Assembly (NCBI GenBank): GCA_900299195.1
Contig: OMIX01000071.1
Location: forward strand, 1-64,000
Source: Deltaproteobacteria bacterium
GTDB taxonomy: Bacteria > Bdellovibrionota > FAC87 > UBA2466
Reading direction: 5' to 3'
Length of the DNA: 64,000 nt
The translations under genes were made by a program, and so were the position numbers. Positions 8,007 through 57,831 of this stretch are shown here, in pieces (the stretch's first letter is position 1; every line of letters begins with the position of its first letter). The notes under the pieces were generated by a model that saw only the letters and a list, made by a program, of their open reading frames with translations, was not told the DNA's origin and did no database searches.

Positions 8007-8178
8007 AACATAATTCCTACATTTTTCCTTCACAATATTTTGCTACTCCCAAGGTGTATCGAGCGGGGAAGGTATATTTAAAAAAAATCCTGATACCCAA
8101 AACATTTGAACCCGGGAAAAACAACTTTGGGAAATGAGCGGCTTTGAATTGAGCAAGCTTTAGAAAAAGGAGTCTGCC

Positions 8179-46180: not shown

Positions 46181-46543
46181 ATGAAAAAGCTGTTTGCTGT
46201 ATCGTTGGTGGCTGTGGGTTTATTGTTAAGTTCATGCGGTAGTAACAATAGTGGGGACTGTCCTCAGGGAGTAAATACGACAAATCCCAACTGTCCTAAT
46301 TATAACCCCAACTATTACACCCAGAACCCTCAATACCCGAACAACCAGTATCCTCAATACCCGAACAATCAGTATCCTCAATACCCGAACAATCAGTATC
46401 CTCAATACCCGAACAATCAGTATCCTCAATATCCAAACAACCAGTATCCTCAATACCCGTATTATGGCGGTTATCCTTATCAGCAATATCCATACGGCCA
46501 GTATCCTTATGGGCAATACCCCATGTATCCTTATTTCCGATAA
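46181..46543 (+). CDS. Q/N/Y/P-rich repeat lipoprotein
   Basis: lipobox VGLLLSSCGS; five NNQYPQYP units; RBS gga upstream. Confidence 0.8.
   Translation: MKKLFAVSLVAVGLLLSSCGSNNSGDCPQGVNTTNPNCPNYNPNYYTQNPQYPNNQYPQYPNNQYPQYPNNQYPQYPNNQYPQYPNNQYPQYPYYGGYPYQQYPYGQYPYGQYPMYPYFR
46336..46459 (+). repeat. 24-bp tandem coding repeat (about 5 units, NNQYPQYP)
   Basis: repeated aacaaYcagtatcctcaatacccg. Confidence 0.9.
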
Positions 46544-48502: not shown

Positions 48503-48793
48503 ATGGCATCTCAAATGATTAAAGGCTTAGCGTTCATTTCTTTGTTGGGTCTAGTTGGCGGAAGACTGGTTGCAAACGAACCAGCTCCAGCCCCAGCGGC
48601 CGAAGCACCAGCCCCAGCAGCAGCTGAATGCAAAAAACACGACAACCATAAACACCAGCACGGTGAGAAGTGTGGCCATAAGGCACATCAGCACAAAGGG
48701 GCCGATGGTACTGAACACACTTGCTATATGCATGGTAAACACCATCACATGGTTCACGGTGAGCATACCGATGAGTGTGAGCATAAATCCTAA
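48503..48793 (+). CDS. secreted His/Cys-rich putative metal-binding protein
   Basis: signal peptide; KKHDNHKHQHGEKCGHKAHQHKG...CYMHGKHHHMVHGEH. Confidence 0.75.
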   Translation: MASQMIKGLAFISLLGLVGGRLVANEPAPAPAAEAPAPAAAECKKHDNHKHQHGEKCGHKAHQHKGADGTEHTCYMHGKHHHMVHGEHTDECEHKS

Positions 48794-48807: not shown

Positions 48808-48845
48808 AAAACCCCAGATTTTCTTTATGGAACTTCTGGGGTTTT
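48808..48845. terminator. rho-independent terminator
   Basis: 11-bp stem aaaaccccaga ... tctggggtttt. Confidence 0.85.
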
Positions 48846-48863
48846 ATTTTGCCTTTTTAAGAC
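48828..48863. repeat. 36-bp direct repeat, left copy of island boundary
   Basis: tggaacttctggggttttattttgcctttttaagac, identical to 55420-55455. Confidence 0.9.
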
Positions 48864-48930
48864 CCAGAAGTAACTCTAGTTAAACCGAAGACGATTGGGC
48901 GACCTAGAAACATTCCGCGGAGGATCGACT
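48861..48930. repeat. 70-bp repeat copy 1
   Basis: matches 54010-54079 with 3 mismatches. Confidence 0.9.
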
Positions 48931-49222
48931 ACAATCTGCTGAGGGGGTTGCCCATTCTCTGGCGCTGCAGTTGGATTGTTTCCTGTAGCTACAGGGTCAA
49001 AGAAGACCATAACGACGCCTAGTAGCCCAAAAGTGGCGTTCCGCTGTATTCCAAAGTCCAATTTTCAATTTATAGTTAATAGTCGAGCTAGGACTTTTGT
49101 GCTACTAGCTTTTCCACCAGCACAATACATCCAAGATTTACTCAGGACTAAAAATAGGTCCGTGAATTATTGCAGGTAAATTTTCCTTTGAATTTCAATT
49201 CTTTCCCTTTGAAATGCAATCG

Positions 49223-50386
49223 TCAAACTTTGAATATCGCTTCTAGCCCTGTTATCCAATGCATCGCTTGGGTTGTGCCAAACTTTCGAGAGAGCTTATC
49301 TAAGCTCAATAAATATTTTTCAGCTTTTTTATCTAAGTCGGTGCCTAAGGTTTCCAGGTTCTTGGCATCTGAGGCATCCACTCTCGTCGATGATTTAATT
49401 TCAACCAGAAGTTGTTTTTTTCCAGGGCGATCAATGACGAGATCGATTTCCACGTCATCCTTCGTTCTCAGATAGTGACAGGTCCAGTCCAATCGCCGAT
49501 AGGAAATATTTTTGATAAACTCCAAAATCACCCAGTGTTCAAAAGCCTCGCCCCACGCGTAGGTTTGAGGCAGTAAGTCGACCGATAAAGTATTCTCCAG
49601 GGCTCGCTTAATCCCCGGATCAATAAAATAAAACTTTGGACTTTGCCGTTGGGCTTTTCGTACCGACGTATGGTACGAGGGAAGATGAAATCCTATGAGC
49701 GTGTCCTCCAGAATTTCAAAATAGTTTGCGACTGTGACATCGTCGCAGCCGACTTCTTTGGCGATCTTAGATTTGTTGAGTATTTTTCCGTTCATCTGTG
49801 CAGCTACGGATAGGAATTTTCTAAAAGGTTCTAGATTACGAACCCATTGTTCTTCTTGAATCTCCTTTTGAAGGTAGGTGCTAATATAGGCTCGTAAATA
49901 TTCGTGGGCACTATCTTTATTCTCGGATAAAAACGCTTCAGGTAGGCCGCCCCTTTCAAGCAGATCTTTTAAGTTATGTTGCGACCCAAGTTCGAAAACC
50001 GAAAATGGAAAAAGATGATAGACCCAGGCACGGCCCGCTAGAAGATTTGTTCCTTTCTGTTTTAGCCGTCGACTGCTTGAGCCAGTCAGGACAAACTGCC
50101 TTTTTCTTTTCTGAATCTGAATTTGAACGGTGTCTAATAACCTAGGCAATCTTTGGACCTCATCGATCACAACGCGCTTATCGCGATTTTCCTTAGCATC
50201 GATGAGATCTTCAAAACGACTTGGATCCAAAAGCAATTGGTCATAAGTGTGAATATCTAACAAGTCCACGAAAAGAGTGTCTTTTGGGGAAAAATAATGC
50301 TCAAGGAAAGTAGTTTTTCCCGTTCCCCGAGAACCAAAAAGAAAAAAACTATTAGATTTTGATGGTTTACATAGTCTCTGAATCAT
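49223..50386 (-). CDS. AAA ATPase with DUF4143 C-terminal domain
   Basis: FLFGSRGTGKTTFLEHYF; VVIDEVQRLPRLLDTV; LTGSSSRRLK; C-terminal nuclease-like DVEIDLVIDRPGKKQLLVEIKSS. Confidence 0.88.
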   Translation of the reverse strand: MIQRLCKPSKSNSFFLFGSRGTGKTTFLEHYFSPKDTLFVDLLDIHTYDQLLLDPSRFEDLIDAKENRDKRVVIDEVQRLPRLLDTVQIQIQKRKRQFVLTGSSSRRLKQKGTNLLAGRAWVYHLFPFSVFELGSQHNLKDLLERGGLPEAFLSENKDSAHEYLRAYISTYLQKEIQEEQWVRNLEPFRKFLSVAAQMNGKILNKSKIAKEVGCDDVTVANYFEILEDTLIGFHLPSYHTSVRKAQRQSPKFYFIDPGIKRALENTLSVDLLPQTYAWGEAFEHWVILEFIKNISYRRLDWTCHYLRTKDDVEIDLVIDRPGKKQLLVEIKSSTRVDASDAKNLETLGTDLDKKAEKYLLSLDKLSRKFGTTQAMHWITGLEAIFKV

Positions 50387-50469
50387 AATCCGAATTTTAA
50401 CGCGTTTTTCTTGCTAAGGTCAATAATTTAGCCTGTTGGCGAGCAGGACTTGTAACGGCTAGAAGACTA

Positions 50470-51428
50470 TTGCATGACGCCAGTATGATCGATGCTGATG
50501 CGAATTTGGGGTCATTAGTTGAGCGAAAGAATGATGATCCAGAGACAAAAAAGCCTAGTCATTATAAAGAGCAGTATCACGACTTTGCGACGGGGAAAAA
50601 ACAACGAAAGTTCGCAAACCATACCCGCGTCAGTTCAACCGCTCCAGATGCGACGATTGTCTCCAGAGCAGGCGGTTATCGAAAACTTTGCGACAAAGGC
50701 ATTACACCTATGATGCAAAATCAAGAGTCATTACGGATTGCCATGTCACAACCGGTGCCCGGCATGAAAGCCAGCTCTTAGCAGAGCGCATTGATTATCA
50801 GCTAGAGCGATTTGGATTTGAAACCGAAGCAATCGCAGTAGATAAGGCTTATGGGAATGGTCCGAACTATCAGTACCTGCGTTCTAAAAGAATAACGCCT
50901 TACATTCCTATGGTTGCGGCAAACACAGCCAAAGAAAAGATTCCTAGAAGTAAATTTGCCTACGACAGAAAAAACGATCGGTACATCTGTCCAGAAAAAC
51001 ATTTCATGTTACCCTTTACGGCACTTCCCAATGGGACAAAGCGCTACCGAGTTCCTGGGAAGCTCTGTTTGACTTGCCCACTAAGACAAGAGTGTGTTTC
51101 GGAAAAAGCTTCCCAAAAAATTCGCTACATTCATAGAGGAGATCACCAAGATGAGGTGGACCTCATTCGCAAGCGGCAGACCACGGCTTATTTTAAATCA
51201 AAGCTCCGAGAAAGGCAGTGGAAGATCGAGGGGCTCGTTGGCGAGGCGAAACAAAACCACGGATTAAGGAGAGCAAGATACAGAGGGAGACACAAAGTTC
51301 AAATACAAGCGTACCTGATCGCAACGGTACAGAACCTCAAGAGGCTAGCAACCTCTTTGAAATTCTGGCTTTTTATTTTTCTAAGACGGGTTTTTCAACA
51401 GGCCCTTATAGCGAATAAAACTACCTAA
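50470..51428 (+). pseudogene. IS1182-like transposase remnant (5'-truncated, frameshifted near 50690)
   Basis: DADANLGSLVER... in frame 1, continuing as YTYDAKSRVITDCHVTTGARHE...WKIEGLVGEAKQNHGLRRARYRG in another frame. Confidence 0.85.
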
Positions 51429-51501
51429 CAAGCTGTGTTGTGCGGTTTCAAACCATAAGGTCGAGGCGGAAGTGTTCAGTATACGACATTTGGGCTGTTT
51501 G

Positions 51502-52260
51502 TTACCTCTGTCGCGGAACAGGGCACCACTCCTGAGTTTTAAATTGACTTTGACAGGATTGTTCACAGGATAGGCCCCAATTGCCCCAACTCCTCCTAGG
51601 GAAGTTACTCAAAACATCCCAGCAGCAGCTACAGCAACCTTGAAAATCTGGAGGGTTGTTTTTATTTCGGTTTGTACTGCATTGAACGGACGGGAAATCA
51701 TGTGGGTCAATGACCGAGCTCTCGCTTACAAAACAATAGGCCCCTACTGTGCCCGTGTTTGTACCCCTACAAAATTGATTACATAGGCTCGGACTCAGAT
51801 ACTTACGAGTATCAGAAGCCGGAAACGTTAACTCTGGTTCTGGGAAGCAGGTTCCTGGAATGATCGTTGGGCATGGCTTCCCCGGTGTTCTTTGGGGTTC
51901 AACCCCACAGCAAGTTCCATGGTAGCAAGCCAAATTAACGGCATGTCCCGCAATTCTTTGTTTAGGATGGGTTTCACAAAAAATACCCACAAAAGCACAG
52001 GTTATTCCGAGAGGTTCATTTTCTGGGTTCTTACACAGATTTAAAAAAGCATTGGCGAAATCATCGCAATCATAGGCAACTTGATACTGCTCCCCATTGC
52101 CCCACAAGCAAAGGGTAGTTGAGATTGCATTCATGCATGCCTGGGGCGAATCAGGAGCTCCCTCGATAACATCCAAAGTAAGCTCCCTGTCAACCCGACC
52201 TTTAGCCATCAGACCTGACAAAAGTAAAACTAGGAATAGGGCACATTCATAACTTTTCAT
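51502..52260 (-). CDS. secreted Cys-rich protein with transglutaminase-like Cys-Asp/His motif
   Basis: signal peptide; about 23 Cys in 252 aa; YDCDDFANAFLNLC ... AGHAVNLACYHG. Confidence 0.65.
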   Translation of the reverse strand: MKSYECALFLVLLLSGLMAKGRVDRELTLDVIEGAPDSPQACMNAISTTLCLWGNGEQYQVAYDCDDFANAFLNLCKNPENEPLGITCAFVGIFCETHPKQRIAGHAVNLACYHGTCCGVEPQRTPGKPCPTIIPGTCFPEPELTFPASDTRKYLSPSLCNQFCRGTNTGTVGAYCFVSESSVIDPHDFPSVQCSTNRNKNNPPDFQGCCSCCWDVLSNFPRRSWGNWGLSCEQSCQSQFKTQEWCPVPRQR

Positions 52261-52538
52261 GGCGACTCCTTTTTAATTTCCCTTTTTAGTTCAACAGCCA
52301 ACCGTGGAGTAATTAAAAGCTCGTAAATTCAAAGCTCCTTTTTGTTGAATCGAGTTTCTTAATCAGGCCCTTTATTTTTTAATGAGGCTTCACCTTTTGG
52401 TAATTTGATAAGACTCATAATCAATCCTTCCAGCAAACACTTTTAAGGTAGCAGAATATTGTGAAGCAAATATGGAGGAATTTTGAAACCGAATGGCCTC
52501 GTAAATAATGTTACCCAAGAATTCGGTAGTTAAAGCGC

Positions 52539-53851
52539 ATTGACTCACAATTAAGGTAACTTAGCGGGGTGTCAGGATTTTGAGTCAGTTACTGAGTGAC
52601 TCATTTAAAAAGCACTTTAGAATTTTTGTTGCGACACAAAAAACTAAGGAGGCCTAAAATGAGCCACTCAGCAAAAAAACAATATCTTTTTGCCATCATT
52701 GAACGCTACCAAAAAAGTGGTCGAAATGAGAAAAAAGTCATATTAAACGAGTTTTGTGCTATTTGCGGCTATAGCCGCAAATATGCAATTCGACTACTAA
52801 ACAACCCCCTAGAGCTGCCAAAAGTACGACCTGGCGCTAAACGACGATATGGGGATTTAGTTCGAGAACACCTATCCATCCTGTGGCGAGCTATGGGCCG
52901 AGTCTGTTCCAAGCGGATTAAAAAAGCATTACCCGAGTGGCTAGAGTACTATCAGGCGGGTAATTGTGATCAAGATACGCGAGATAAACTTTTAAAACTC
53001 AGTCATTCGACTATTGATCGAATTCTAAAACCCGAACGGAAGAAGGAAAAAGGAATCTCAACTACACGCCCAGCGAAATACTGGTATAAGGCACGAATTC
53101 CAATTCAAGCTGAAGACATCTCGGTAACTGAAGCAGGCTTTCTCACTGCTGATACAGTAGCTCACTGTGGCGATTCTGCAGGAGGATCCTATGCTAGTAC
53201 AATTACCGTAACTGACATCGCGTCAACCTGGACCTTAAATCGCGCAATAAGGGCTAAGACGCAAACAGAGGTTAAAGAGGGTATCTCAGCCATAGAGTTG
53301 TCTCTTCCTTTTGCTATGAAGGCGTTTAAATCAGATTGCGGCTCCGAATTTATGAATCGCACCCTATTTGAGTACTTTATTGATCGAGAAACTCCAGTTC
53401 TCTTCTTCCGAACCCGCCCATACCAAAAGAATGACAACTGCCATGTTGAGCAAAAGAACTTCACCCACGTTCGAAGTCTATTCGGATATGGACGCTTTGA
53501 CTCCGAAGAACTGGTAAATCTTATGAATGAAATCTACTCGGAATACTGGAATCCTTTGCAAAACTATTTTATTCCCACAATGAAACTGGCCCTAAAAGCC
53601 AGAGAGGGAGCCAAGATAAAGAAAGTATATGATGAAACACAAACTCCATTTCGCAGACTAATGGAATCCTCGGCCCTGTCCGAAGAGAAGAAAAAAGAAC
53701 TTCTAGAAAAAAAGAGAGATCTAAACCCATTCCATTTGAGAGCTATGCTAGATACCAAACTAGAAGAATTTAGATTAAGAGTGAAACAGCTGTCGCAAAA
53801 ATCTAAAGCTGCTGCCTAGTCCTGCCGGTTACATCTATATTTGAGTCAATA
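52539..53851 (+). mobile_element. insertion sequence with rve-type transposase; inferred terminal inverted repeats
   Basis: attgactcacaattaaggtaac at left; right end reverse complement attgactcaaatatagatgtaac; encloses transposase ORF. Confidence 0.65.
52596..53819 (+). CDS. rve/DDE integrase-core transposase (start may be MSHSAKK at 52659)
   Basis: LNEFCAICGYSRKYAIRLL; FLTADTVAHCGDS; FKSDCGSEFMN; KKNDNCHVEQKNFTHVR. Confidence 0.9.
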   Translation: MTHLKSTLEFLLRHKKLRRPKMSHSAKKQYLFAIIERYQKSGRNEKKVILNEFCAICGYSRKYAIRLLNNPLELPKVRPGAKRRYGDLVREHLSILWRAMGRVCSKRIKKALPEWLEYYQAGNCDQDTRDKLLKLSHSTIDRILKPERKKEKGISTTRPAKYWYKARIPIQAEDISVTEAGFLTADTVAHCGDSAGGSYASTITVTDIASTWTLNRAIRAKTQTEVKEGISAIELSLPFAMKAFKSDCGSEFMNRTLFEYFIDRETPVLFFRTRPYQKNDNCHVEQKNFTHVRSLFGYGRFDSEELVNLMNEIYSEYWNPLQNYFIPTMKLALKAREGAKIKKVYDETQTPFRRLMESSALSEEKKKELLEKKRDLNPFHLRAMLDTKLEEFRLRVKQLSQKSKAAA

Positions 53852-53924
53852 CGAAAGCCGGTGGCCTCATCATGGAGAGACCAGGGAATCCTCTGGGAAC
53901 TCCATAGAACAATGAGGAAAAGCC

Positions 53925-54011
53925 ATGAGTCTAACGCTAAAGCGGTTGTATCTGGATTTTTTGCGCGAACGTTACCGGAATACGAAGAGTCGAAAAGCGA
54001 AGATTATGCGA
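53925..54011 (+). pseudogene. N-terminal fragment of a second, related transposase
   Basis: MSLTLKRLYLDFLRERYRNTKSRKAKIM, resembling the N-terminus of the neighbouring transposase; interrupted by the 70-bp repeat. Confidence 0.55.
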
Positions 54012-54079
54012 CCCAGAAGTAACTCTAGTTAAACCGAAGACGATTGGGCGGCCTAAAAACATTCCACGGAGGATCGACT
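54010..54079. repeat. 70-bp repeat copy 2
   Basis: matches 48861-48930 with 3 mismatches. Confidence 0.9.
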
Positions 54080-54308
54080 TGTTTAAAGTCCTAAAAATGA
54101 AAAAAAAATGTTCATAGCTATTTAACTTTGGAAATCGTTGGTTGTTTTGAATGAAAGTTGTCAAAATGCCCTGCTCAATGAAGAAAAGTTCGACAGAGGG
54201 TGGGCAAGTTGTCAGGTATAAAAAAGATAGGCAAAGGTTTTGCATTATTTTATGAGTGTCCGTGTTTCTTCATCTGTCCCTCCAAGTATCACTTGAAGAT
54301 ATCCTTAA

Positions 54309-55376
54309 GTGTTTTCCCTCCGCAGATTGGTTGGGTGTGTCGTGTTTAGAAAAAAATGGTTGGTTTTTCCTATTCTTTGGCTTGGTGCCATTGGATGCCA
54401 AAACAGTGAATCGATCAACTTTCTTTTTCAAGGTGGGAACATTTTCCCAAATGCAGTCGTTTCCTGGGGAGATCGTTACTCGTTATCTGAAACATTGATT
54501 ATCAAGGGAGACCAAGAATACTCATTAGAACCAGTGAGTTTTCTTAAAACAAAGCTACGTTTTATGGTGTCTGTTCAATCGACACCTCGCCTACGCAAGA
54601 TGATTTTTATCATCGACATTTCGGGTTCAATGAAAAAAGTAGACCAAGAAGTCAATCAAAGTTGCCAACGATTGCAGGCCGTGGAGAATGCGATTAAGCA
54701 GGCTAAATCCCAAGGGCCTAGTCAATTTGCTGTACTCACATTTAATTCTGCGGTTGTTGAAAACTCGGCAGGCTTTTTTAACTCGCTAGAAGAGATGTTC
54801 CCTACCAAAAAGTTGAGTGATGTTTTTTGTGTGGCCCGAGGAAGCACTAGTTATGAAAAGCCTTTAATGGCTGCCGTCGAATTGATTAAAAAACAACAGT
54901 ACGACGCTAGTCATGAACTCTTCTTTTTGAGCGATGGCTTGCCCACTCGGGATGTGTCTGGAGGTGAGTTGGTAGCTACAGAGATTAAGGATTCAAACGA
55001 AATGATTATTGCTACTTTGTATTTGGGAGCCAAACAGAAAGACGAAGAATATCTAAAAACTAAGGTAGCTGGATATGATATCCAGGGAAACTTGTTACAT
55101 AAGGCCGTAGCTCAAGCATCTGGGCTTGTCGAAGCTTTGTCTGTTCTAAGTTTGGACCCTTTGATTTCTGGAAAGCTTTTATATCGTGAGATGGGCCAAT
55201 CTGAATGGGTCGAGATTGATATGCTGCCTATGACTCAGAAGGGATTGTTTTCTTCGACTGAAATTGAGTTTGATAGTGATTCATTTCCCTCCGGACTAGA
55301 AGTGAAGTTTGACTACCATACAGGTCGGGGCTCAATCCACTCGGGGTTCTCCAGGCTCCGATGGTTTGGCCACTAG
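54309..55376 (+). CDS. VWA-domain lipoprotein
   Basis: lipobox LWLGAIGC; MIDAS FIIDISGSM; FLSDGLPTRDV. Confidence 0.8.
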   Translation: MFSLRRLVGCVVFRKKWLVFPILWLGAIGCQNSESINFLFQGGNIFPNAVVSWGDRYSLSETLIIKGDQEYSLEPVSFLKTKLRFMVSVQSTPRLRKMIFIIDISGSMKKVDQEVNQSCQRLQAVENAIKQAKSQGPSQFAVLTFNSAVVENSAGFFNSLEEMFPTKKLSDVFCVARGSTSYEKPLMAAVELIKKQQYDASHELFFLSDGLPTRDVSGGELVATEIKDSNEMIIATLYLGAKQKDEEYLKTKVAGYDIQGNLLHKAVAQASGLVEALSVLSLDPLISGKLLYREMGQSEWVEIDMLPMTQKGLFSSTEIEFDSDSFPSGLEVKFDYHTGRGSIHSGFSRLRWFGH

Positions 55377-55419
55377 GGTCCGATTCCCTAGGGTAGGAAG
55401 GAACGAATATGCATCCATT

Positions 55420-55455
55420 TGGAACTTCTGGGGTTTTATTTTGCCTTTTTAAGAC
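55420..55455. repeat. 36-bp direct repeat, right copy of island boundary
   Basis: identical to 48828-48863. Confidence 0.9.
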
Positions 55456-56113
55456 GATTCCAGGACCATTTGAGGATTAACGGTAAGAATCCCAACAGAG
55501 TAAAAGAAACTATGAGATTTGGGGAAAGTAGCTGTCGAGTAGATTGTATCTTTGAAATTTGGGTTCCAGCGTTGACATAAACAGCGGTGGCTGGAAGCAT
55601 TCCGAGTTGGCTTACCCAAAAGAAGGTGATGGGTTTAATGCAAGTCAGTCCCATCGTGGAATTCACAATAAAAAACGGGAAGGTCGGAATAATTCTCAAT
55701 GCGAATAAATAGAAGGCCCCCTCTTTTTCAAATCCAGCATTAATTTTTTCTAGGGGTTTTTTAAATTTTTCCTGAAAGAAATCTCTCATTAAGTAACGAG
55801 CTAAAAGAAAAGCCAATGTAGCGCCGACCGAGGAGGTCAGAGAAACTAGAAACAGCCCCCAACCAAAACCAAAAAGAGCGCCTGCCGCTAGCGTGAGTAC
55901 AGTCGCACCAGGAATAGCTAGTGCTGCGCAGATTAAATACGAGAAACAAAACACAGCTACAGTGAGAACGGGATGGGCTGAGTAATAAGATTGAAACTTG
56001 GCCTGCTGACTTTGAAGGTGCTCTAAAGTGAAATAAGATCTCCCGTAAAAACTTACCGACAGGATGAGTACCAATAAAACTAGCGCAATCAATGTTTTTA
56101 GTTTTTTAGCCAT
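55436..56113 (-). CDS. TVP38/TMEM64 (DedA-like) membrane protein
   Basis: GATVLTLAAGALFGFGWGLFLVSLTSSVGATLAFLLARYL; RIIPTFPFFIVNSTMGLT. Confidence 0.88.
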   Translation of the reverse strand: MAKKLKTLIALVLLVLILSVSFYGRSYFTLEHLQSQQAKFQSYYSAHPVLTVAVFCFSYLICAALAIPGATVLTLAAGALFGFGWGLFLVSLTSSVGATLAFLLARYLMRDFFQEKFKKPLEKINAGFEKEGAFYLFALRIIPTFPFFIVNSTMGLTCIKPITFFWVSQLGMLPATAVYVNAGTQISKIQSTRQLLSPNLIVSFTLLGFLPLILKWSWNRLKKAK

Positions 56114-56319: not shown

Positions 56320-57831
56320 ATGCGAACTGTTGTAAAAGTTGGATTAGTCAAATTAGTTGTTCTAAGTCTGTTAGTGGTTCAACCGAGAGTTAAAGCGGAA
56401 CCTGAGTTACCTCCTCAAATTCCCAATTCTGCTGGGTGGATCAACCAGCTTTTTAAAGCGGGATCCTCTCTCACGGATGTGGCCAACCCTTTGAATTGGG
56501 TTGTTTACTCCGCAGCAGGTACCTATTTCTATTATCAGTACATGTTAAAAGGGTCTCTTAAAACAGCCTTGGCCGCTCGAAATGTGATGGTAATGCAACT
56601 GAGAGAGACAAACTTGGCCATTGAGAATAAAAAAAAGCTGATCCAAGAGGTGGATCTTTTAATTGATGATCTTAAGCGGCAAATTGAAGAAAGTGAAAAA
56701 GCATTTCAGGAGATTCCTTCGCATTATCAAAAATTGAACAAGCACTTGGGAACTAAAAGTAAAAAAAGGTTTGGTTCCATTTCAGATTACTCTCAAGTGG
56801 AGCAATGGTTGAAAACCGAACGGGGTCAAAAGTTTTTAAAGACTGAACCCGGAAAAGAGTGGTTGGAAAAATATGAGTCCCTAAAAATCCAATCCACCGA
56901 AGCGCTTGAAGAACCTTTAAGAAGGGTCATTACCAAAGTTAATGAGGTCATTGAAAATCCCAAAGCGGATATGATTAAACCTGTCAACACTTCCCAACTA
57001 CCTCCAGGAAATTTTACTTCGGAAAATTCTGTGAACTATGGAAGAAACCAGTTGCCGCTGGGGGCTTTAAGCTCACACGCCGACAAGCTGAAAAGCGAGT
57101 GTCATCAAATTTTAAGTGGCCTAGTAGCCAAGAAAACCAAGTTGACACAGGATACGAATTTCTTCCAGTTTTGGAGCCGAAAAGAAAATGTTTCACCCGT
57201 TCTTAAACATGGGGTAATCACCCTCGGGGGAGCAGGTGCCACCCTTTGGTTGTACAAGCTTTACAAGTTTGACGAAAAAAAGCGAGAAGCAGACCTTGAA
57301 GCTAAACTTAAGGGAGATTCGGCTTTTGATTTAGCCACAACCCTGCGCATGGAGCGGGCTAGAAAATTGATGGCACCTTATTACGAGGCGATTCGCAAAG
57401 CGATGCTAGAAAAACAGGACCAAATAGTTGAAGCTATCGAAAAAAATCTGACCGATGCAGAAAAACAGAAAATTGATGTTAGAAATTTAGTTCAGGCACG
57501 TTTAAAAGGCGATGTTTTTGACTTAGTGGTAGAGTCGGTCATTTTGAAAGTGGCCAAAACAAGATTAGGGGATAGAACTTCGGTCTCTGAACTCACTAGC
57601 TTAATCAATAGGGTTAAAAACAACCCAGATGTTCGAGAGGGTATTTTTAGATCCTTTCACAAAGAGGTTGTGCATGAGTGTATCAACACTCTTTGGTCTG
57701 AATTCACCTCTGGGGATTTGTCTAATGAAATAAATCCAGAAACTCTTCGGCAATTGCGGCAACTCAGTGAAACGATGTTTTTGGAAATGCCCAAAACCAA
57801 CCTACAAGCTGGTGTTAAAACGAACCAGTAA
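56320..57831 (+). CDS. hypothetical exported coiled-coil membrane protein
   Basis: signal peptide MRTVVKVGLVKLVVLSLLVVQPRVKA; coiled-coil and TM segments. Confidence 0.65.
   Translation: MRTVVKVGLVKLVVLSLLVVQPRVKAEPELPPQIPNSAGWINQLFKAGSSLTDVANPLNWVVYSAAGTYFYYQYMLKGSLKTALAARNVMVMQLRETNLAIENKKKLIQEVDLLIDDLKRQIEESEKAFQEIPSHYQKLNKHLGTKSKKRFGSISDYSQVEQWLKTERGQKFLKTEPGKEWLEKYESLKIQSTEALEEPLRRVITKVNEVIENPKADMIKPVNTSQLPPGNFTSENSVNYGRNQLPLGALSSHADKLKSECHQILSGLVAKKTKLTQDTNFFQFWSRKENVSPVLKHGVITLGGAGATLWLYKLYKFDEKKREADLEAKLKGDSAFDLATTLRMERARKLMAPYYEAIRKAMLEKQDQIVEAIEKNLTDAEKQKIDVRNLVQARLKGDVFDLVVESVILKVAKTRLGDRTSVSELTSLINRVKNNPDVREGIFRSFHKEVVHECINTLWSEFTSGDLSNEINPETLRQLRQLSETMFLEMPKTNLQAGVKTNQ

Follow-up and report, generated by a model that had tools for sequence, protein, structure and literature searches.

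The 64,000-nucleotide stretch of DNA analyzed here (the window, from contig OMIX01000071.1 of a Deltaproteobacteria bacterium) carries an insertion at a variable locus: each related species in which the locus is readable has a different content there. The insert, an accessory stretch of about 6.56 kb (48864-55419), lies between two exact copies of a 36-bp sequence, at 48828-48863 and 55420-55455 on the forward strand. These repeats are two copies of a pre-existing terminator arm together with the 3' end of a TVP38 gene, made by the insertion. The segment represents a modest, decayed genomic island, ordinary in kind. As for its origin, site-specific integration of a small element that later lost its integrase is our favored reading, which we hold tentatively.

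The repeats and the restored junction

The locus is anchored on the left by the gene of a small His-rich protein (48503-48793, forward strand) with orthologues in the same-genus genomes G001, G002 and G003, and on the right by a conserved gene of 503 codons (56320-57831, forward strand) with orthologues in G001, G003 and G004. Between them, the gene encoding a stand-alone TVP38/VTT-domain membrane protein (55436-56113, reverse strand) ends inside the right 36-bp copy.

The 36-bp repeats were reported as perfect in a preliminary description, and both copies were indeed exact. The host genome (2.83 Mb in 128 contigs, 97% complete) contained no third site when up to three mismatches were allowed, and the 36-mer was found neither in 58 other genomes of relatives nor in viral contigs. 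It is therefore not a dispersed repeat, a possibility that the preliminary description had named as one that would count against insertion. An exact pair of this length is expected by chance about 2e-13 times in 12 kb, and shuffled sequences gave none. The 36-mer lacks an evident inverted pair of recombinase-binding arms.

A complete bidirectional terminator is located at 48808-48845 and folds on both strands. Its complete inverted repeat, AAAACCCCAGA...TCTGGGGTTTT, is present at the left site only, where the folding energies on the two strands were -21.8 and -21.7 kcal/mol (z -3.6 and -5.1), as against -6.1 and -5.1 kcal/mol (z +1.2 and +0.3) at the right site. This agrees with the earlier proposal that the left 36-mer completes a terminator whose left arm lies at 48808-48818. 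The right 36-mer consists of one terminator arm and the final codons and stop codon of TVP38; the last codons (LKKAK-stop) were located there, as described before. Joining both 36-mers by script produced a single intact terminator and left TVP38 identical, so that collapsing the repeats restores two convergent genes sharing one terminator, as had been suggested. Such an outcome is expected of an attachment site at the 3' end of a gene, and direct repeats on both sides, from which the site is restored by collapsing them, are a property by which genomic islands are recognized.

In several relatives, a TVP38/VTT domain and a mercuric-reductase-like FAD oxidoreductase form one fusion protein of about 740 aa, while the protein of the window stands alone; its nearest relatives in the genus are fusions of more than 700 aa. 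The C-terminus of the window's TVP38 matches stand-alone VTT proteins and ends as they do, and it therefore looks native and not made by truncation. Derivation from a TVP38-reductase fusion was considered and set aside, since no truncation is needed.

The locus in related species

The corresponding locus was compared in species of the same genus (G001 to G005). The comparison rests on orthologous, diverged sites, the anchor proteins being about 45-67% identical, and several contig ends lie near the locus. G001, G002 and G003 all have a conserved His-rich gene and terminator, with an equivalent hairpin 3' of this gene in each. In G001, the 503-aa gene follows about 0.4 kb after the His-rich gene with no gene between. 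Two unrelated genes (encoding 784 and 471 aa) lie between the anchors in G003, along with a short transposase-like reading frame that was judged by eye. The TVP38-reductase fusion gene of G002 (L044:3017-5236) runs convergently toward the His-rich gene and has its stop codon in the T tract of the terminator, as in the window. In G004, a contig end carries a VTT gene beside, and divergent from, the 503-aa gene. Searching the genome contigs with the 503-aa anchor returned only the same loci of G001, G003 and G004, and no direct repeats resembling the 36-mer were found around the contents in G002 and G003.

The contents at this place differ in four species, as compared across species of one genus. 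The genes of the island are absent from the orthologous site in G001, G002 and G003, which is again a property of islands. The preliminary description had regarded the content between the repeats as inserted, unless relatives always carried it at this locus; the three same-genus genomes lacking it here support insertion. Judging from the arrangements in G001 to G004, the order His-rich gene, VTT gene and 503-aa gene is likely ancestral; the 6.56 kb enclosed by the two 36-mers is an addition. Elsewhere in the window, a lipoprotein gene (46181-46543) contains a tandem 24-bp repeat, the unit and copy number of which vary between species at the same locus.

Genes and insertion sequences of the island

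Within the island, an AAA_14/DUF4143 ATPase (49223-50386, reverse strand) strongly matched the PADLOC single-protein candidate model PDC-S01 (4e-68) and may possibly be a defence gene. A Cys-rich secreted protein assigned to no family (51502-52260, reverse strand) had no relative among the 58 genomes. A VWA-domain lipoprotein is encoded at 54309-55376 on the forward strand; it has a 36% identical paralogue on contig C24 (L051, G000) and a 42% identical homologue in G004. No close relative within the genus was found for the Cys-rich protein or for the IS481-like transposase described below. The G+C content was 0.40-0.48 inside the island and around it alike, so that the distinct composition common to islands, which is not a required feature, was not observed. 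A plasmid origin was rejected because the island DNA gave no plasmid match. A stretch of the island at 52448-52485 has an inverted match of 38 bp (87%) at 8009-8046.

The island contains both remnants and one intact copy of insertion sequences. A remnant of the IS1182 family (50431-51403, forward strand) encodes a transposase without its N-terminal part, is bounded by 8-bp inverted ends of its own, GCCTGTTG, and is internal to the island. An IS481-like insertion sequence of 1318 bp (52536-53853, forward strand) is intact and encodes a 386-aa transposase (52659-53819). Of its 12 outer bases, 11 are inverted, and it is flanked by AAAG at 52532-52535 and 53854-53857, an apparent 4-bp target duplication, so that inverted ends and a short target duplication surround a complete transposase. 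Its score against the curated IS481 model was 32.9 bits, as against a cut-off of 224, and by sequence it is classed as a distant IS481 relative only. The element is a later, nested insertion; with an apparent duplication of 4 bp, it was rejected as the origin of the duplicated 36 bp. Within the coding sequence of its transposase, a perfect 24-bp palindrome (52760-52783) reads ICGYSRK on both strands.

We also found a second direct repeat, which is absent from the preliminary description. It is 70 bp long and 96% identical (48861-48930 and 54010-54079), starts on the last three bases (GAC) of the left 36-mer, and reads DPEVTLVKPKTIGRPRNIPRRID in frame. Its left copy is part of a piece of transposase debris, fragment A, that is readable to about 48965 on the forward strand. 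The right copy belongs to fragment B (53926-54079, forward strand), where it is directly preceded by a part (53926-54008) that reads like the N-terminal end of an IS481-like transposase; homologues that are intact, with 389 aa, were detected in G039 and G170. Fragments A and B break at the same base and are most likely leftovers of a single type of transposase. From a weak alignment, the 70-mer appears to be the segment following the helix-turn-helix of that transposase.

Possible routes of insertion

Perfect direct repeats at the 3' end of a gene, when they leave the gene end intact, usually point to an integrase. On these prior grounds we favor an integrase route, and we infer both the integration and the later loss of the integrase. 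A small integrative element would have integrated site-specifically into the terminator and 3' end of TVP38, that is, at the junction of two convergent genes with one common bidirectional terminator, and the two 36-mers would be attL and attR of the integrated element. The integrase would subsequently have been lost through IS insertion and deletion, and the remaining island would have decayed and is probably immobile. The IS elements and fragments inside the island would explain this decay. Neither an integrase nor a relic of one was found in the island, and the scanned island proteins included no recombinase of the tyrosine or serine type, as integrase-driven elements encode, serine types being covered by these scans only. 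This agrees with the preliminary description, which had seen no recombinase typical of att sites. No tyrosine recombinase match was found on the contig of the window, and those found in the genome are located on other contigs. The missing integrase, the lack of clear binding arms and the unremarkable G+C content all argue against integration by an integrase. Moreover, the left end of the island falls on transposase debris at the 3-bp GAC overlap, and the repeat in fragment B starts at the same base. The left edge may therefore not be where the element originally ended.

Illegitimate capture is a rather unlikely route, by which a replication or repair error would have joined foreign IS-rich DNA through short overlaps while template switching copied the 36-bp and 70-bp blocks. 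The GAC overlap at the left junction, the adjacency of the two blocks at the left edge, each with a second copy at the right, and the shared break point of both 70-bp copies would all fit. However, a random event would not have to restore both genes as precisely as the 36-bp duplication does. The host genome also lacks a Ku match, so Ku-dependent end joining is improbable and was rejected. Transposition is likewise unlikely. In this reading, an IS1182-type transposase would perhaps have brought a composite element into the hairpin of the terminator, with a duplication of 33-36 bp, and the ends of the element would have decayed since. IS1272, which is placed in the IS1182 family, targets stem-loop structures and replaces them (PMC5678879), and target duplications of 16-28 bp occur in the IS1202 group (PMC10132070); the island contains an IS1182-family remnant, its insertion site is a hairpin, and long duplications thus have precedents. 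But the remnant is internal with its own ends, no terminal inverted repeats as expected of composite transposition by an IS1182-family or other element were found at the island ends, and the left hairpin survives complete instead of being replaced. In addition, the duplication of the intact IS481-like element is 4 bp, and the transposase did not match the IS1202-type model.

Turnover of a hotspot by recombination at flanking core genes appears improbable. The same place holds different contents in four species, and many chromosomal hotspots lack integrases and show recombination in the core genes that flank them (Oliveira et al., 2017; PMC5635113), yet this process alone leaves the 36-bp repeat unexplained and has no known donor. 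A misassembly of this metagenome-derived genome is very improbable: the assembly is split into 128 contigs and there are repeats at the junction, but these are short, a single 75-kb contig carries the anchors in the order of the relatives, and a misjoin would need the native 36-mer at both ends of a foreign piece. Integration, long-duplication transposition and illegitimate capture all yield a restorable 36-bp duplication, and the present data do not separate them.

The island resembles islands and integrative elements at gene 3' ends in that accessory genes lie within a perfect direct repeat, one copy keeps the end of the host gene, and the content is absent from relatives. It differs from the usual ones in having no detectable integrase, a protein-coding target instead of a tRNA gene, a small size and IS debris throughout. 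With the hotspots of Oliveira et al. (2017; PMC5635113) it shares fixed anchors, differing contents and the frequent lack of an integrase; in contrast to them, it was compared between species of a genus and not within one species, and it has a direct repeat. Like IS1272 insertions into stem-loops (PMC5678879), it involves an IS1182-family sequence and an inverted repeat as the site, whereas its remnant lies within the island, with the terminator hairpin preserved.

A so far unrecognized route, by long-duplication transposition or integration, that recognizes bidirectional terminators and duplicates one arm plus about 20 bp next to it, leaving both neighbors with working ends, is conceivable and improbable. 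The island leaves the general understanding of such islands unchanged, and it carries a candidate defence ATPase. It adds a record of a variable insertion locus from a poorly studied lineage of Bdellovibrionaceae, in which the same terminator borders differing gene sets in related species, and would gain greater significance only if several independent insertions prove to target the terminator itself.
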